Origin: a virus
DNA length: 31,121 nucleotides
Reading direction: 5' to 3' (one strand)
Virus record (IMG/VR): IMGVR_UViG_3300017991_001349
Location: 1 to 31,121 of that record
A program made the translations under genes and the position numbers. Positions within the stretch are counted from its first letter, which is position 1. Each line of letters starts with the position of its first letter. The notes beneath the pieces were generated by a model. The model was not told where the DNA came from, did no database searches, and saw nothing but the letters and a program-made list of their open reading frames with translations. This document shows, in pieces, positions 72 through 30,595 of this stretch.

Positions 72-761
72 TTACCTGGGGGGTTCTTTACTTGAAATGT
101 AATCCGTTACAAGAGGAACTATCCGATCCCAGTGTGGGTTTTCCGGGCGCGTATGAAAAACGCCAGCACCGGGAACGGACGTGGGACGTAAGACACGACA
201 CATAGCCTCGTCAATTCCCATCGTTAGCGGCTGCACCGTCGTCGCCAAGTCTACCAGCGCGGAGGACTCAAACAGGATTCCCAAGATCGGCCCGCGTAAC
301 GGCTTCCCCTCTTTGCTGGCGCTGACACCACTGATACCGCTAACCTGTTGCGGTAACTGCTGTCGTTCAACATCATCAGACGGCGCGAAGTCGGGATACA
401 CGTTGACAGGAACAGCAGCAGCAACATCGGCCTTCAACAGAGTCTCCAGGCATAGGTAGTCCGCTACGGCGTCGTCCTGAAAGAACCAAACGTACGGCGT
501 GTCTATCTTACCTGCGGCGATTGCGAAGGCGCTGGCATGGACCGCGCCCAGCGTCCCGTTAGCTACACGCGTAAGCGTAACTGGAATTATCTCTGATATG
601 ATGTCGAGGGACGCACCTATGTTACTGGCTACCCAAGCGCCCGTGTTCACAATCAAGATTTCGCGCAAGCGGGCGCTCGCGGTCTGCAACGCCACGCTCC
701 AAACGCAGGCGTTGAGACGCACAGGGTCATTGCACGTAAGAATAATAGCGGTAACGTCCAT
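72..761 (-). CDS. Glycosyltransferase family 2-like protein (GT-A fold)
   Basis: This 229-residue protein probably transfers a sugar from a nucleotide-sugar donor. It starts with VTAIILTCNDP, the first beta strand and nucleotide-binding loop typical of GT2 enzymes. An acidic QDDA motif follows a hydrophobic strand (VWFF) near residues 95-98, where the metal-binding DXD motif of GT-A enzymes sits. No membrane segment is seen, so it should be cytoplasmic. Its ATG shares one base with the stop of the queC-like gene (TGATG), so the two are likely translationally coupled. The PIG-L fragment starts just after it. The context of deazaguanine genes makes glycosylation of a modified base or nucleotide an attractive idea, but surface-polysaccharide modification is equally possible. 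It is short for a GT2, and the acceptor is unknown. Confidence 0.65.
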   Translation of the reverse strand: MDVTAIILTCNDPVRLNACVWSVALQTASARLREILIVNTGAWVASNIGASLDIISEIIPVTLTRVANGTLGAVHASAFAIAAGKIDTPYVWFFQDDAVADYLCLETLLKADVAAAVPVNVYPDFAPSDDVERQQLPQQVSGISGVSASKEGKPLRGPILGILFESSALVDLATTVQPLTMGIDEAMCRVLRPTSVPGAGVFHTRPENPHWDRIVPLVTDYISSKEPPR

Positions 762-1552
762 CAGTCTATCTCGTAGTCGTAGGTGTCGGACAAATGTTCT
801 CTGTAGCGTTCAGACCAATAATCATCTCCAATGCCCTTCTTGCGCAAAGAGAACGGCAACGGGCGCCCGATTGCCTGCGCGGTATGCCACGCGACTTGGC
901 ACTTAGCGCAACGCCCACACCAACAATCAATCTCGCGGCGGTCCTTTGTCTTGATGCAAGAAATAATACGCGAGTACCAGTCGGGGCGCAGCCGCGCCAG
1001 CGCCACGGCTATCTCGTCCTTAGTCATGCCGAGCAACGGCATGATGACAGTCTGCCCGCTGTACTCAAACCAACGAGCGCAAAACTCCGCATTCGCTTCC
1101 GGGAGGTCGCCTAGTCCAAAGCGCCACTCATTCCCCATAATAACCGTGCTGTAGCCAAGCCCGGCCAACAAAGCCGGGACTCCACCTTCCATATAACTCT
1201 CCATCCAATAGTCGAACACTTCATACTCCAACACACCGTCGAAGTTGGGAAGATAATCAAGAGAAATACGATGGACGTGCGGAAAGGCGGCAGCGAGATA
1301 GGTGGACTCCAAGCCACCTGAGAACGGAAGCACTACTTCTCCCGTGTAGCGGTACTCGTGTAGCTTTTCCTTGGAGCTAACTTCGAGGGTGCGGCTTACG
1401 CCCTGTGCCTCCCCGTATGCCGAAAGCATCCAAGACCAAAAGCGCAAGCGATCTTGAGACATCGAAGGAACAACGACCTCGGGACATTCCTCGTCAAACA
1501 GCATTGCCCGCGCGGAGAGGTCCTGTCGCGCCCTGGCAGATATATTGGACAT
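761..1552 (-). CDS. QueC-like PP-loop ATPase (7-cyano-7-deazaguanine synthase-like)
   Basis: QueC converts 7-carboxy-7-deazaguanine to preQ0 using ATP and ammonia. The protein (263 residues) has the PP-loop SGGLEST at about residues 78-84. A C-terminal Cys cluster (C199, then CWCGRCAKC at about 210-218) matches the SC...CGxCxxC zinc site of QueC. It lies just after queE, with only a 9-nt gap that carries a GGGAGG ribosome site. Oddities: the usual SGGxDS loop has Glu in place of Asp, and about 70 residues precede the PP-loop, whereas QueC begins almost directly with it. It may therefore be a diverged QueC that acts on a related substrate, or another PP-loop amidating enzyme. The pathway assignment is supported by neighbours but the exact reaction is inferred. 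Confidence 0.65.
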   Translation of the reverse strand: MSNISARARQDLSARAMLFDEECPEVVVPSMSQDRLRFWSWMLSAYGEAQGVSRTLEVSSKEKLHEYRYTGEVVLPFSGGLESTYLAAAFPHVHRISLDYLPNFDGVLEYEVFDYWMESYMEGGVPALLAGLGYSTVIMGNEWRFGLGDLPEANAEFCARWFEYSGQTVIMPLLGMTKDEIAVALARLRPDWYSRIISCIKTKDRREIDCWCGRCAKCQVAWHTAQAIGRPLPFSLRKKGIGDDYWSERYREHLSDTYDYEID

Positions 1553-1562
1553 GACAACCTCC

Positions 1563-2153
1563 CTAACGTATACCGATTAACTTGTGTGTTTGAAGGGATA
1601 GACGCCAACGGGGATTGGCATAACAAAGGTCGATGACTTCTTTGACGTGTTTGGGGAAGTCTGCGTCGTCGCACGGCTGCAAGAAGAGATGGTCGAAGTC
1701 CATACCCTCCCACTTCTTGAGCGATCCGCCAATGTAGGGGTAGATCAACTTCAGTTCGTCTCCGTACGTCTGACGCAGCTCGAATCCCTTCTCTTGCGGT
1801 TTAGGGCTGACCGTTATCCAGTCGAATCCCATCCCGGAAAGCGGCACAGTTCCATTAGTCTCTATCGCACACTGGAACCCACACGACTTTAACCTGCGCA
1901 ACAAAGTCAAGTCCACTTGCAACGCAGGCTCGCCGCCGGTGAACACGATATTATTCACAGGCTTGTACTTAACACACAAGTCTACCAACTGATCCGCATC
2001 GGCGCTGAACTTGCCGGAATAGTCGGTGTCACACCAAGCACACTTCAAGTTGCATCGCGCAAAGCGCACCATAATAACAGGGGTTCCGGCGTGTGCGCCT
2101 TCGCCCTGTATGGTTTGATATACCTCGTTCAGCTTGTACTCAGACTCGCTCAT
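1563..2153 (-). CDS. queE: 7-carboxy-7-deazaguanine synthase (radical SAM)
   Basis: QueE makes 7-carboxy-7-deazaguanine from 6-carboxytetrahydropterin with S-adenosylmethionine and a 4Fe-4S cluster. The 196-residue protein shows the N-terminal QGEG motif (about 16-19), the cluster motif C34-x3-C38-x2-C41 followed by D, and TGGEP at 72-76. The C-terminus, LSLQTHKLIGIR, is typical of QueE. Length fits the family. The ATG is preceded by GGAG with a 6-nt spacer, and the 19-bp palindrome sits directly upstream of that site, so expression may be controlled from it. It heads the operon queE, queC-like, glycosyltransferase, PIG-L. In phages this enzyme usually supplies a deazaguanine for DNA modification; tRNA queuosine metabolism is the alternative. 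Confidence 0.93.
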   Translation of the reverse strand: MSESEYKLNEVYQTIQGEGAHAGTPVIMVRFARCNLKCAWCDTDYSGKFSADADQLVDLCVKYKPVNNIVFTGGEPALQVDLTLLRRLKSCGFQCAIETNGTVPLSGMGFDWITVSPKPQEKGFELRQTYGDELKLIYPYIGGSLKKWEGMDFDHLFLQPCDDADFPKHVKEVIDLCYANPRWRLSLQTHKLIGIR

Positions 2154-15892: not shown

Positions 15893-17302
15893 TTAACGCT
15901 TTTTCTTCTTGGCTTTCTTCTTACCGGCCTTCCCGGCCTTCCCGGCCTTCTTCTTCGCGCTGCGGAGGGACTTGCGTACTTCCTCGGCGCTTTCCTCGGG
16001 TTCTTCTTCCTCTTCTTCCTCTTCTTCCTCTTCTTCCTCGCCTTCCTCCGGTTCCTCACCGGCTTCGTCGTCTTCCTCCAACAATGCGCGGAGGTCGTCG
16101 GCGCTCGCGGACTTCTTGAACTTCAGACCGCGCTCTTTGGCTTCTTCCTTGAGTTCCTTCTTGGACCATTCCGAGTAGTCGGCTTCTTCTTCCTCCTCTT
16201 CTTCTTCTTCCTCTTCTTCTTCCTCTTCTTCTTCCTCCTCTTCTTCTTCTTCTTCCTCGGGTTCTTCTTCCTCCTCTTCCTCCTCTTCCTCACCGGCTTC
16301 GTCGTCTTCCTCCAACAACTCGATGAAGTCCTTCTTCTTCTTCAGGCCGTCGATGTCGAGGTCGCGTTCCTTGGCCTCCTCTTTCAATTCTTTCAACGAC
16401 CACTCCGAGTAAGGAACTTCTTCTTCCTCTTCTTCTTCCTCGGGTTCTTCCTCCTCGCCTTCTTCCTCGGCGTCGTATTCCTCCAACGCCTCAATGATGT
16501 CACGCTTTTTCAAGTCCTCGGTGTCGATGTCTCGTTCCTCAGCCAGCTTTTTAAGCTGCTTCAGGGTCATTTCGTTGTAGTCCATTTCTGCTTCGTCCTC
16601 GGATGCGGTGTCCAGTTCGATACCAGAGTTTTCTAAGAGCACCTGGACTTGCGCCCCTAGTTCCTCGTCGTATTTGATGTACTTAGCGAGGTCCAATTTC
16701 CTCGCGTCCTTGATAAGTCTTTTTACCTCCTGGGGGTCGTCGTGTAAGGGGGTAGATTCCTTCAGCACGCGCGTCTTGTATTCCTTGTTGAAGCCGCTTC
16801 CCTCGGCCTTGACCCGGAAGTCCGTCCCTTCCTCCGCGTCGTCCAGGATTTCCTCGTCGGTATCCATCGCCTCAAACAAAGTCTCCCATACTGTACGCGG
16901 CACCTGAGCGACTTTGACTATCGGAGGATCGTCCGAACGATCAATGACTTTGACCCAGAAACGCACCGTGACGCGCAAAGCGTCCATCAGGTCCTGCGCT
17001 TCCTTGTCCTCGGACTCCGCGAGTTGCCGCACCGCTTCACAAGCCGGACACACTTGGCCGGAATCGGGATGGGTCATCTCCGGGCAGATAAAAGAGCGGC
17101 CCTGCCCGCCAACCTGAATAAAGTGTGTACCTACAATCATCTCGATTGACGGATCGTCATCCGGGACAGGGAGTAACCTAAGAATAACCTTCTTGCCGTC
17201 CGTGAAGTGAGACGAACGGATAAAGATGCGCTTACCAGCCAGCCGCTTCTTTGACTGGGCCAACACGGCCTTCCGCTTCGCGGACATTTTCTTTTTCGGC
17301 AT
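15893..17302 (-). CDS. gp32-like single-stranded DNA-binding protein with three SAP/HeH-like repeats
   Basis: The first 200 residues match the T4 gp32 type of SSB: VILRLLPVPDDD, then a zinc site with H60 or H78, C73, C85 and C88 (FICPEM...VCPAC), followed by VRFWVKVIDRSDDPPIVKVAQVP split over two strands. The remaining 270 residues are unusual. Three copies of a 35-residue helix-extension-helix motif (MTLKQLKKLAEERDID, WSLKELKEEAKERDLD, WSKKELKEEAKERGLK) are separated by linkers made almost wholly of Glu. A Lys/Ala/Gly tail ends the protein. SAP/HeH motifs usually bind nucleic acid, so this is an SSB with built-in tethered domains. T4 gp32 ends in one short acidic tail. GGAG lies 6 nt before the ATG and palindrome site 5 is just upstream. 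Confidence 0.85.
   Translation of the reverse strand: MPKKKMSAKRKAVLAQSKKRLAGKRIFIRSSHFTDGKKVILRLLPVPDDDPSIEMIVGTHFIQVGGQGRSFICPEMTHPDSGQVCPACEAVRQLAESEDKEAQDLMDALRVTVRFWVKVIDRSDDPPIVKVAQVPRTVWETLFEAMDTDEEILDDAEEGTDFRVKAEGSGFNKEYKTRVLKESTPLHDDPQEVKRLIKDARKLDLAKYIKYDEELGAQVQVLLENSGIELDTASEDEAEMDYNEMTLKQLKKLAEERDIDTEDLKKRDIIEALEEYDAEEEGEEEEPEEEEEEEEVPYSEWSLKELKEEAKERDLDIDGLKKKKDFIELLEEDDEAGEEEEEEEEEEPEEEEEEEEEEEEEEEEEEEEEEEEEADYSEWSKKELKEEAKERGLKFKKSASADDLRALLEEDDEAGEEPEEGEEEEEEEEEEEEEPEESAEEVRKSLRSAKKKAGKAGKAGKKKAKKKKR
16184..16292 (-). repeat. Poly-Glu coding tract (GAA/GAG repeat)
   Basis: The plus strand is an almost pure run of CTT/CTC triplets that codes for about 35 consecutive acidic residues in the SSB linker. 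Such tracts change length by slippage. Shorter relatives lie at about 16000-16055 and 16420-16470. Confidence 0.8.
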
Positions 17303-28365: not shown

Positions 28366-28407
28366 AAAACAAAAGCCCAAAGACTGAGGTAGCCCGAAAG
28401 CTACCTC
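28366..28407 (-). terminator. Intrinsic terminator after the histone-like gene
   Basis: An 8-bp perfect stem (GAGGTAGC/GCTACCTC, 28386-28407) is followed on the minus strand by AGTCTTTGGGCTTTTGTTTT. The T-rich stretch is interrupted, so termination may be partial. Position between a gene stop and a promoter fits. Confidence 0.6.
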
Positions 28408-28433
28408 GTCTCGTAGATGCTGTGCAGGTGAAG

Positions 28434-28604
28434 TTACCTCCGCCCCTTCTTGGCAGTCTTCTTCTTGGCTACCTTCTTCTTCGTGGCCTTCTTCTTCGTG
28501 GCCTTCTTCTTCTTCGTGGCCTTCTTCTTGGCAGTCTTCTTCTTGGCTACCTTCTTCTTGGTGGCACGCTTTCCGCCGCCACCGCCTTTTGCGGGTCCAC
28601 CCAT
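28434..28604 (-). CDS. Small Lys/Ala-rich histone H1-like protein
   Basis: A 56-residue protein made of GGPAKGGGGGKR and then repeated five-residue units of the type (A/V/T)(T/A)KKK. Nearly half the residues are Lys, as in bacterial and eukaryotic H1 C-terminal tails, so it should bind DNA or RNA without sequence preference and may compact or shield phage DNA. The ATG at 28604 is chosen because GGAG lies 6 nt before it. An upstream in-frame ATG at 28736 would make 44 more residues, but that stretch lies in the structured leader and reads unlike a protein. It is transcribed after an elaborate RNA leader and ends at an intrinsic terminator. Confidence 0.75.
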   Translation of the reverse strand: MGGPAKGGGGGKRATKKKVAKKKTAKKKATKKKKATKKKATKKKVAKKKTAKKGRR

Positions 28605-28616
28605 AACAATCTCCTC

Positions 28617-28762
28617 GGTTCGTGAGATGGGCGGTGTAGGTGTTTGCCCATCTCGGGGTTGGATTGACGCCTTCACGAACCTCCCTACACCTGTTGGGGC
28701 GTCCCCCTGCCGGTGAGTCGGCTTCTCGGCCCGCATAAGGCGTCAGAAAAGGTCGGGCCGGG
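28617..28762 (-). ncRNA. Predicted double-pseudoknot structured leader
   Basis: Five long complementary pairs occur within 146 nt upstream of the histone-like gene. D: 28617-28625 with 28673-28681 (9 bp). E: 28624-28632 with 28646-28654 (9 bp). C: 28633-28640, the loop of E, with 28684-28691 (8 bp). B: 28665-28673 with 28737-28745 (9 bp). A: 28725-28733 with 28754-28762 (9 bp with one G-U). C crosses D and E; B crosses D and A, giving two interleaved pseudoknots. Small hairpins GGGG/CCCC and GCCG/CGGC fill the middle. Helix D ends just before the GAGGAG ribosome site, so folding could control translation. No known riboswitch or ribozyme class was recognised. Confidence 0.5.
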
Positions 28763-28807
28763 ATAAGTAAAAGAACGTGCGCAACGTCCAAGAGGTCAAT
28801 AGTGTAA

Positions 28808-29212
28808 CTAAGAGCCAACCGCTTGTAAAGGTTTCCCAGAAAGTTTGGAATACTCCATGATAGAATCTTGCAGTTGCTTGCAACGCTGGCGGCTCAACCT
28901 GAATCGCTTCCCTGTACGCTCCAGGTTTCTAGTAGTTATCAACGCCCGGATAAGGCCGGGGTGCTTGTCACGCATATTAGCCAGCACACGCTCCAGACTG
29001 CGCAAAAGACGGCGCTTGTTGATCTTAGCCACAGCTTCCCGACCTCCATCCTCCACCTGACGGCGTAGCGCCTTGTGCTGCGCCCTCTTGGCGGAAGCAT
29101 GACTGATCTGGTATTTACGCATAGTATCAGTCACGTTCCGAACTAAAATGTCCGGGTCGTAGGATGCCTCGGTTAAGACTTTCTGCAACTCCGATTCGCT
29201 ACGTCTTGGCAT
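28808..29212 (-). CDS. Small protein with sigma region 4-like helix-turn-helix
   Basis: A 134-residue, highly basic helical protein. Its second half reads LERVLANMRDKHPGLIRAL, a gap, then KRFRLSRQRCKQLQDSIME. This follows the layout of sigma factor region 4, where a first helix pair is followed by a GxSRxRVRQIE-type recognition helix. It lacks a clear region 2, so it is either a very diverged phage sigma factor, a sigma-like activator, or another HTH regulator. A strong ribosome site (GGAGAGGAGGAA) precedes the ATG. It stands alone between spacers and ahead of the structured leader. No intrinsic terminator is visible directly after it. Confidence 0.6.
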   Translation of the reverse strand: MPRRSESELQKVLTEASYDPDILVRNVTDTMRKYQISHASAKRAQHKALRRQVEDGGREAVAKINKRRLLRSLERVLANMRDKHPGLIRALITTRNLERTGKRFRLSRQRCKQLQDSIMEYSKLSGKPLQAVGS

Positions 29213-29370: not shown

Positions 29371-30174
29371 TCAGAAGCGATTGCAGCGCAACCAGCGTCC
29401 AATCGCACCGTGCTCTCCCGCAATAGCTCCCTTGTTTATGCCCTCGTACAAAACCAGGGCGGCTATGTCGTGATGTGGCGCCAACATCTCGAACAACCGC
29501 TCCACAATGTTCTCAGCCGTAGCCTCTACGCCAGCGGGCAGCAAGAAGAACAGGCGCTTAGGTAGCGCAAGCAAGCAGTCGTCCGTACGCATCTCCCAGA
29601 CGCCCGTGTTGCTACTCTGATCCACCTTGTCCGAGGACACTACGAAAGCCCCACGCAACAACTCGACGGCTTGACTGGTCGCACGTCTATCCTCCGCGCC
29701 GTCTTTAGTTATAGCTACAACCCTTGAACTGTGACCGTGCATACGTTTACACACGCCCTTGTGCTTAAACAAACAATGAGCGTAGTGCGTAGGTAGCCCC
29801 ACATCGGTGTATGGATCAGCACAAATATTGCGGGCCGTCACAGAGGTAACAACGAGGGGTTTAATCTGATCTTCCAAGTCTGCCATAATAAGCAGACAGT
29901 ACATAGCTGGCCCCCACCGATCTTGCTTACCGTAAGCCCGTATAACGCCGCCTCCCGATGCCTTCACGTCACTACTGGTAACTAGTAGACGGTGATCGTA
30001 GTCGTCCAGGGCAGCTTTGAAGATAGGCTTTACGTCTCCGAAGTCGCTAATCATGCCGGTACATACATCCGGCTTGCCCTGAATCGTTACTGTTACACGA
30101 TCCGTATATCCCCTAATGATCGCACCATTGGCGACCGCATAGTCGATTGTCTCGGTTATAAATATCGCGGTCAT
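29371..30174 (-). CDS. Tandem T-fold QueD/6-pyruvoyltetrahydropterin synthase-like protein
   Basis: QueD makes 6-carboxytetrahydropterin, the substrate of QueE. This 267-residue protein looks like two T-fold domains in a row. In domain 1 (1-95), DRVTVTIQG is followed by TGMISDFGDVK (39-49) and D60-H61, which match the second half of QueD. Its zinc HGH position reads RGY (21-23). Domain 2 (about 125-235) has H130/H133, the catalytic-type C142, H146-G-H148, and ATAEN near 220, but no Asp-His pair where expected. Catalytic and zinc residues thus seem divided between domains. QueD is about 120 residues and oligomeric. The ATG at 30174 (GGAG 8 nt upstream) is preferred to the GTG before it. A promoter lies upstream. 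Confidence 0.7.
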   Translation of the reverse strand: MTAIFITETIDYAVANGAIIRGYTDRVTVTIQGKPDVCTGMISDFGDVKPIFKAALDDYDHRLLVTSSDVKASGGGVIRAYGKQDRWGPAMYCLLIMADLEDQIKPLVVTSVTARNICADPYTDVGLPTHYAHCLFKHKGVCKRMHGHSSRVVAITKDGAEDRRATSQAVELLRGAFVVSSDKVDQSSNTGVWEMRTDDCLLALPKRLFFLLPAGVEATAENIVERLFEMLAPHHDIAALVLYEGINKGAIAGEHGAIGRWLRCNRF

Positions 30175-30194
30175 CACGATCTCTCCTGTGTTGT

Positions 30195-30224
30195 AGTATA
30201 CGCGACCGAAATTAGTCGCGTCAA
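30195..30224 (-). promoter_or_regulatory. Sigma70-type promoter for the QueD-like gene
   Basis: TTGACG (30219-30224) and TATACT (30195-30200) with an 18-nt spacer on the minus strand, about 20 nt before the start codon. The leader is short. Confidence 0.65.
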
Positions 30225-30253
30225 GAGAAATCTTTCGCAGATGTAAAGTGAGA

Positions 30254-30278
30254 CGGGGGCGCTGGTCAGACGCCCCCG
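30254..30278. terminator. GC-rich hairpin between two promoters
   Basis: An 8-bp perfect stem (CGGGGGCG/CGCCCCCG) closes a 9-nt loop. It lies about 50 nt downstream of the 30333-30360 promoter and before the QueD promoter. The minus strand continues with TCTCACTTTACAT, a weak U-tract. It could be a terminator or attenuator. Confidence 0.45.
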
Positions 30279-30332
30279 CAAACTCTCCCGTGAACTCCGT
30301 CTATCCGCTCTTCCTCACACCGCGCTATCTAA

Positions 30333-30360
30333 AATATACCCCATAATGGCGCGAAGTCAA
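30333..30360 (-). promoter_or_regulatory. Sigma70-type promoter next to palindrome site 9
   Basis: TTGACT (30355-30360) and TATATT (30333-30338) with a 16-nt spacer on the minus strand. The palindrome begins 3 nt upstream of the -35, a place where a bound protein could activate or block it. The transcript would meet the 30254-30278 hairpin first. Confidence 0.65.
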
Positions 30361-30363
30361 GCG

Positions 30364-30380
30364 ATTAAACGACGTTTATT
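30364..30380. repeat. Dispersed palindrome, site 9
   Basis: Perfect 13-bp core TAAACGACGTTTA (30366-30378) with one mismatch in the outer right arm. It lies in the non-coding control region, immediately beside a -35 element. Confidence 0.8.
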
Positions 30381-30560
30381 GTTTACGGGGCTTTACATGT
30401 ACGTTAGACTGTACCTACCGTGTGGGAACCCTCTAGGGAGCGATGTTCCGTCGCTTACTCTCAAGTCCTTCCCTACACAGGAAAGATGCGCTTCCCCGGC
30501 GGCAGGTTCTGGACCATGCGGGACTTGCCCAAACTTCGGTGAGCGCAAGTGCTACACGGC
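30381..30560. other. Non-coding stretch with a possible 18-codon plus-strand ORF
   Basis: Together with the sites listed, this fills the 414-nt gap between the fibre gene and the QueD-like gene. The plus strand has an 18-codon frame at 30486-30542 (MRFPGGRFWTMRDLPKLR) with AGGAAAG just upstream, then a strong plus-strand terminator. That combination suggests a short plus-strand transcript, either a small RNA or a mini-peptide. No convincing plus-strand promoter was found, and no tRNA was recognised. Confidence 0.3.
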
Positions 30561-30595
30561 GAAAGGCTGGCTTCGGCTGGCCTTTCTTATTTTAC
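30561..30595 (+). terminator. Plus-strand intrinsic terminator
   Basis: GAAAGGCTGGC and GCTGGCCTTTC pair over 11 bp with two G-U pairs around a TTCG loop, followed by TTATTTTA. The T-tract is on the plus strand and none follows on the minus strand, so it ends a plus-strand transcript facing the fibre gene. It may also slow minus-strand readthrough from the fibre gene. Confidence 0.65.

Follow-up and report, generated by a model that had tools for sequence, protein, structure and literature searches.

A candidate structured leader RNA with interleaved helices upstream of a lysine-rich phage gene

The viral record analysed here (31,121 bases, hereafter the window) consists almost entirely of coding sequence. 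One non-coding exception is a 203-nt gap on the minus strand that holds a cluster of complementary segments of about 146 nt, located immediately upstream of an ORF whose product is small, very basic and histone-like. The question raised by this locus is whether the cluster is more than a product of chance and, if so, whether it acts as an RNA, and in which role.

Genomic context of the element

The window carries a replication and packaging gene set of phage type, including a family A DNA polymerase, a DnaB-like helicase, a primase, a UvsX-like recombinase, a UvsW-like helicase and a terminase large subunit, the latter identified through its relatives. The coordinates of the element and of the surrounding features are shown in Table 1.

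Table 1. Features of the locus and selected genes of the window. For the helices, 5' and 3' refer to the minus strand.
Feature	Sequence	Position	Strand	Remarks
Helix A, 5' strand	UCCCGGCCCG	28754..28763	-	7-bp core 28760-28754; mismatch 28761; outer pairs 28763-28762
Helix A, 3' strand	CGGGCCGAGA	28724..28733	-	Pairs with A 5' strand
Helix B, 5' strand	UGACGCCUU	28737..28745	-	In loop of hairpin A
Helix B, 3' strand	AAGGCGUCA	28665..28673	-	Within loop closed by D
Helix C, 5' strand	GGUGUAGG	28684..28691	-	2 nt 5' of D
Helix C, 3' strand	CCUACACC	28633..28640	-	In loop of hairpin E; directly adjoins E 3' strand
Helix D, 5' strand	GGUUCGUGA	28673..28681	-	28673 common to B
Helix D, 3' strand	UCACGAACC	28617..28625	-	Ends at Shine-Dalgarno sequence; 28625-28624 common to E
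Helix E, 5' strand	GAGAUGGGC	28646..28654	-	9 bp with 28624..28632
Helix E, 3' strand	GCCCAUCUC	28624..28632	-	9 bp with 28646..28654
Shine-Dalgarno sequence	GAGGAG	28611..28616	-	6 nt 5' of ATG
ORF, 56 aa	MGGPAKGGGGGKRATKKKVAKKKT...KKGRR	28434..28604	-	Lysine-rich; histone H1-like composition
Intergenic region housing the element		28605..28807	-	203 nt; second longest of the window
Promoter-like site	TTTACA-17-TACACT	28801..28829	-	9 of 12 consensus match only
ORF, 134 aa		28808-29212	-	5' neighbour of the element; without family matches
QueC-like gene		761-1552	-	
QueE gene		1563-2153	-	Profile match
QueD/PTPS gene		29371-30177	-	Profile match

The lysine-rich ORF starts with the ATG at 28604. 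Its product was matched by the NCBIfam histone H1-like profile (NF038053) at E = 0.038, with a score of 14.3 against a cut-off of 80. It shares lysine-rich repeats of the KKAT/KKVA type with the bacterial histone H1-like DNA-binding proteins of that family, but lies far below the cut-off, the likeness being one of composition only. When the 56-aa protein was used as search query no confirmed relative was obtained, and a search with its start pattern, MGGPAKGG, returned three frames, all of them unrelated. A longer ORF of 100 aa, running across the element from an in-frame ATG at 28736, was rejected, as this codon has no Shine-Dalgarno sequence.

On the other side of the element, the C-terminal part of the 134-aa ORF, compared with PDB chains, showed a weak resemblance to sigma-70 region 4 at non-significant E values of 0.5-0.8. 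From the promoter-like site, a transcript start near 28794 was predicted. A weak terminator-like site separates the element from this promoter-like site, and none was found between the element and the lysine-rich ORF. A likely terminator is located 3' of this ORF, formed by the hairpin GAGGTAGC-TTTCGG-GCTACCTC (28375-28410, minus strand), a few bases and a T-rich stretch; a promoter-like site of uvsW is found beyond it, at 28351-28323.

Helices and chance expectation

When all helices of the minus strand between 28763 and 28617 were listed, helices A to E were the strongest (9 bp for B, D and E, 8 for C and 7 for A). The four perfect helices of 8-9 bp announced by the first-pass annotation were thus located on the minus strand, as B, C, D and E. 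The same annotation had described helix A as a 9-bp helix with a single G-U (28762-28754/28733-28725), which needs correction: in minus-strand RNA positions 28761 and 28726 form a C.A mismatch, and the G-U form belongs to the plus strand only. Helix A therefore has a core of 7 bp (28760-28754/28733-28727, CGGCCCG/CGGGCCG) and two further pairs past the mismatch. The helices alone say little on which strand is the RNA.

Five pairs of helices cross, namely A/B, B/C, B/D, C/D and C/E. The helix coordinates agree with the architecture first proposed, in which B joins the loop of A to the inside of D, C joins the loop of E to a segment adjoining D, and D abuts the ribosome-binding site; the gap between D and the Shine-Dalgarno sequence is in fact 0 nt. 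Helix D has 1 nt in common with B and 2 nt in common with E; D and E together therefore contribute 16 pairs and not 18. The maximum sets free of pseudoknots are A+D+E, B+E or A+C.

When the 146 nt were shuffled 20,000 times with dinucleotide composition preserved, a shuffled sequence contained on average about 0.16 perfect helices of 8 bp or longer, within the 0.1-0.3 estimated beforehand, against four observed. At least three such helices appeared in nine shuffles and at least four in a single one. No other 146-nt stretch of the window reached four; related phage DNA, 2.39 Mb with duplicates counted, contained a single further case, with 23% GC. Random placement of helices of the same lengths kept the segments separate, with a tolerance of 2 nt, in about 1.2% of the trials. 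With a threshold of 7 bp the margin is thin, the best total being 42 bp here and 40 and 39 bp elsewhere (2.42 Mb). Even with its selection from 31 kb taken into account, this interleaved complementarity in leader position is judged unlikely to be a chance cluster.

Predicted folds

The pseudoknot-free minimum for the 147 nt of the minus strand was -57.6 kcal/mol (z = -2.6; 1 of 200 shuffles), and the corresponding z value of the plus strand was -1.35. Taken pairwise and with duplex initiation included, the five duplexes sum to about -69 kcal/mol, a value that does not contain the pseudoknot loop penalties; compared with the nested minimum, it indicates that a pseudoknotted fold could compete. 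For a longer leader (28794-28590) the best pseudoknot-free folds containing B+E, A+D+E and A+C had energies of -73.6, -71.7 and -69.9 kcal/mol, all within 3.7 kcal/mol, and the minimum-energy folds of the growing transcript passed from A to B, then to A+C and finally to B+E. Given these nearly equal energies, competing states fit as well as one knotted body, and both a single ornate fold and a switch are possible.

A coarse rigid-helix geometric model admitted all five helices together, and also a control with shortened linkers; the model is too permissive and therefore gives no support to the simultaneous formation of the five helices. A first, loose pseudoknot descriptor was dropped, as it was without specificity.

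Pairing between the start-codon region and the leader was equally good or better in 1066 of 2000 shuffled leaders, and the accessibility of the start site is similar to that of other genes of the phage, not unusually closed. Sequestration of the start codon by 28706-28691, seen in predicted folds, was discarded because shuffled sequences gave it equally often. With start-codon pairing at chance level, a role in translation control is argued from the position of the element and from analogy with the leaders of T4 gene 32 and S15 discussed below.

Searches for relatives

In a search of the whole window against Rfam 15 no family, preQ1 riboswitches included, matched the element at E <= 1, and a search with 211 nt gave chance matches alone (E 1.1-7.8), none above the gathering cut-off. 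Comparison by blastn with 50,697 phage and 72,556 plasmid records, up to E = 10, yielded fragments of at most 42 nt and no homolog, and no homolog was found among IMG/VR viral contigs with an exact 19-mer of the element. A covariance model built on the single sequence with helices A+D+E detected no further copy in 49 related viral records, the best other matches having E values of 0.16 and 0.46 per genome. Since no homolog was found, there is no covariation to support the structure.

Viral contigs scanned with UvsW or DNA polymerase as single-protein queries gave no relatives, and a distant DnaB was all that the search of the genome collection returned. Relatives were recovered by aligning terminase, DnaB and UvsW, the nearest being 46% identical for terminase and about 30-38% for the other two. 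Neither the lysine-rich gene nor the element is present in those relatives whose sequence extends upstream of uvsW; the best terminase relative stops inside uvsW and is uninformative on the element. Judged by the 46% terminase identity of its nearest relatives, the phage itself appears isolated. For this reason, and because very near records may be missing from the searches, the absence of homologs is weak evidence against function.

The proposal of a new structured RNA thus stands in part: the cluster is probably non-chance, rich in potential pseudoknots, placed at a leader and without an Rfam match, but without homologs it does not make a new family, which a single sequence cannot define. 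The element is an orphan candidate and not an established RNA class.

A structured leader of the lysine-rich gene

With a probability that we place slightly above even, the element is a structured, cis-acting 5' leader of the mRNA for the lysine-rich protein. This reading follows from helices in excess of chance, the z value of the nested fold on the minus strand, the location in a non-coding gap and the direct contact of the last helix with the arrangement GAGGAG-6-ATG. The promoter-like site just upstream fits a separate transcript. The nearly equal energies of the B+E, A+D+E and A+C folds and the precedent of phage leader pseudoknots in autogenous repression also speak for it. The reading is weakened by the lack of homologs, by helices that hardly indicate the RNA strand (the G-U form of A being that of the plus strand), by start-codon pairing at chance level, by the weak terminator-like site before the element and by related phages having neither the lysine-rich gene nor the element beside uvsW.

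In the proposed mechanism, the leader RNA would fold into a pseudoknotted body in which the loop of A is paired by helix B to the interior of the D-E arm, and the loop of E is paired by helix C to the segment preceding D. Alternatively, the leader may shift between two nearly equally stable states, A+D+E with C and B+E. In either case, the folded body directly upstream of the ribosome-binding site would set the efficiency of ribosome initiation. The likeliest signal would be the basic protein, which may bind the leader of its own mRNA in the way that T4 gp32 binds a leader pseudoknot; this autogenous regulation, which we infer by analogy, is a tentative suggestion to which a fairly low probability is assigned.

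In phages T4 and RB69 a leader pseudoknot of gene 32 is bound by gp32 and nucleates autogenous repression; the T4 pseudoknot spans about 28 nt, and the RNA after it, more than 40 nt long, is mostly unstructured and contains UUAAA (PMC535899). The present locus resembles that operator in having a pseudoknot, here a predicted one, in a phage leader ahead of the ribosome-binding site, with a gene product of nucleic-acid-binding type. It differs in its extent, as the five helices occupy about 146 nt and leave no space before the Shine-Dalgarno sequence, and in that a less structured stretch with UUAAA/UAAA repeats over the ribosome-binding site is absent (28616-28590 reads GAGGAGAUUGUUAUGGGUGGACCCGCA). 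Complementarities that cross (A/B and C/E/D) immediately precede GAGGAG, and their joint formation is a prediction. Leaders of S15 genes, of the E. coli pseudoknot type and others, likewise control translation of a basic RNA-binding protein by means of pseudoknots or kissing loops, and vary greatly across lineages (PMC4137082), so that an orphan leader is not odd. In contrast to them, the present element has no ribosomal protein gene and no Rfam match, and the Shine-Dalgarno sequence is outside helices A-E.

If the fold is real, the leader is an unusually knotted RNA for its size and would be a case of phages controlling a chromatin-like protein through RNA structure. Its small size would allow probing and structure determination to be quick.

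Alternative explanations

A free-standing small RNA, trans-acting or protein-binding, with its own promoter or cut from a leader and only incidentally beside the ORF, is considered unlikely. The compact, self-contained set of helices, a gene-free gap of sufficient length and the promoter-like site upstream are compatible with it, but a last helix that ends exactly at the Shine-Dalgarno sequence and the lack of a terminator-like site before the ORF make a leader the more natural reading.

A somewhat lower probability is given to a functionless chance cluster of complementary words. The element was singled out from 31 kb because it stood out most, helices of 7 bp reach similar totals elsewhere (40 against 42 bp) and conservation is not demonstrated; on the other hand, the rarity among shuffles (1 of 20,000), the single AT-rich case in the 2.39 Mb of related DNA, the disjoint tiling of the segments and their position in a gene-free gap argue against it. 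We rate at the same low level the boldest reading, a new phage RNA class of about 146 nt with five helices and two interlocked pseudoknot systems, controlling the histone-like protein as a riboswitch, a ribozyme or a protein-sensing operator with a new fold.

Small ribozymes and some riboswitches typically contain more than one interleaved pseudoknot, and the QueC-, QueE- and QueD-like genes of the phage make pathway ligands conceivable. That the element belongs to a new class of self-cleaving ribozymes or metabolite riboswitches is nevertheless improbable, and more so than the chance cluster. The downstream gene is non-metabolic, and Rfam gave no ribozyme or riboswitch match, the preQ1 classes included. 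The hammerhead core CUGANGA is lacking, with no CTGANGA on either strand from 27228 to the end of the window. The nested double pseudoknot of HDV-like ribozymes has the strand order P1 P2 P3 P3' P1' (P4) P2'; compared by hand, the minus strand follows the different order C5 D5 E5 C3 E3 D3, and the plus strand leaves only 2 nt between P1' and P2'. HDV-like, pistol and permuted hammerhead ribozymes are likewise compact folds with crossing helices (PMC10085705 for the permuted hammerhead), but the element has a different strand order and matches none of these families. The ribozyme option of the first-pass annotation accordingly loses the known self-cleaving families, which leaves a new class as an improbable candidate.

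Least probable of all is a DNA-level element, with inverted repeats serving protein binding, replication or packaging: complementarity alone cannot separate RNA from DNA and the site adjoins a DNA-binding-like gene and a helicase gene, but each of the five pairs has a sequence of its own, unlike repeated copies of a single site, and it is hard to see what their interleaving would serve in duplex DNA.

Additional genomic features

The longest intergenic gap of the window is that at 30178-30591 (414 nt), for which the predicted folding energy is low, at -0.40 per base. The gene at 15893-17302 (minus strand) encodes a protein that combines SAP and Rho_N-like domains with very long acidic stretches rich in E. 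The QueC-like gene is without a family profile match and its assignment to QueC is our own reading; based on the Que genes, the phage probably synthesizes a 7-deazaguanine, possibly for use in DNA modification.
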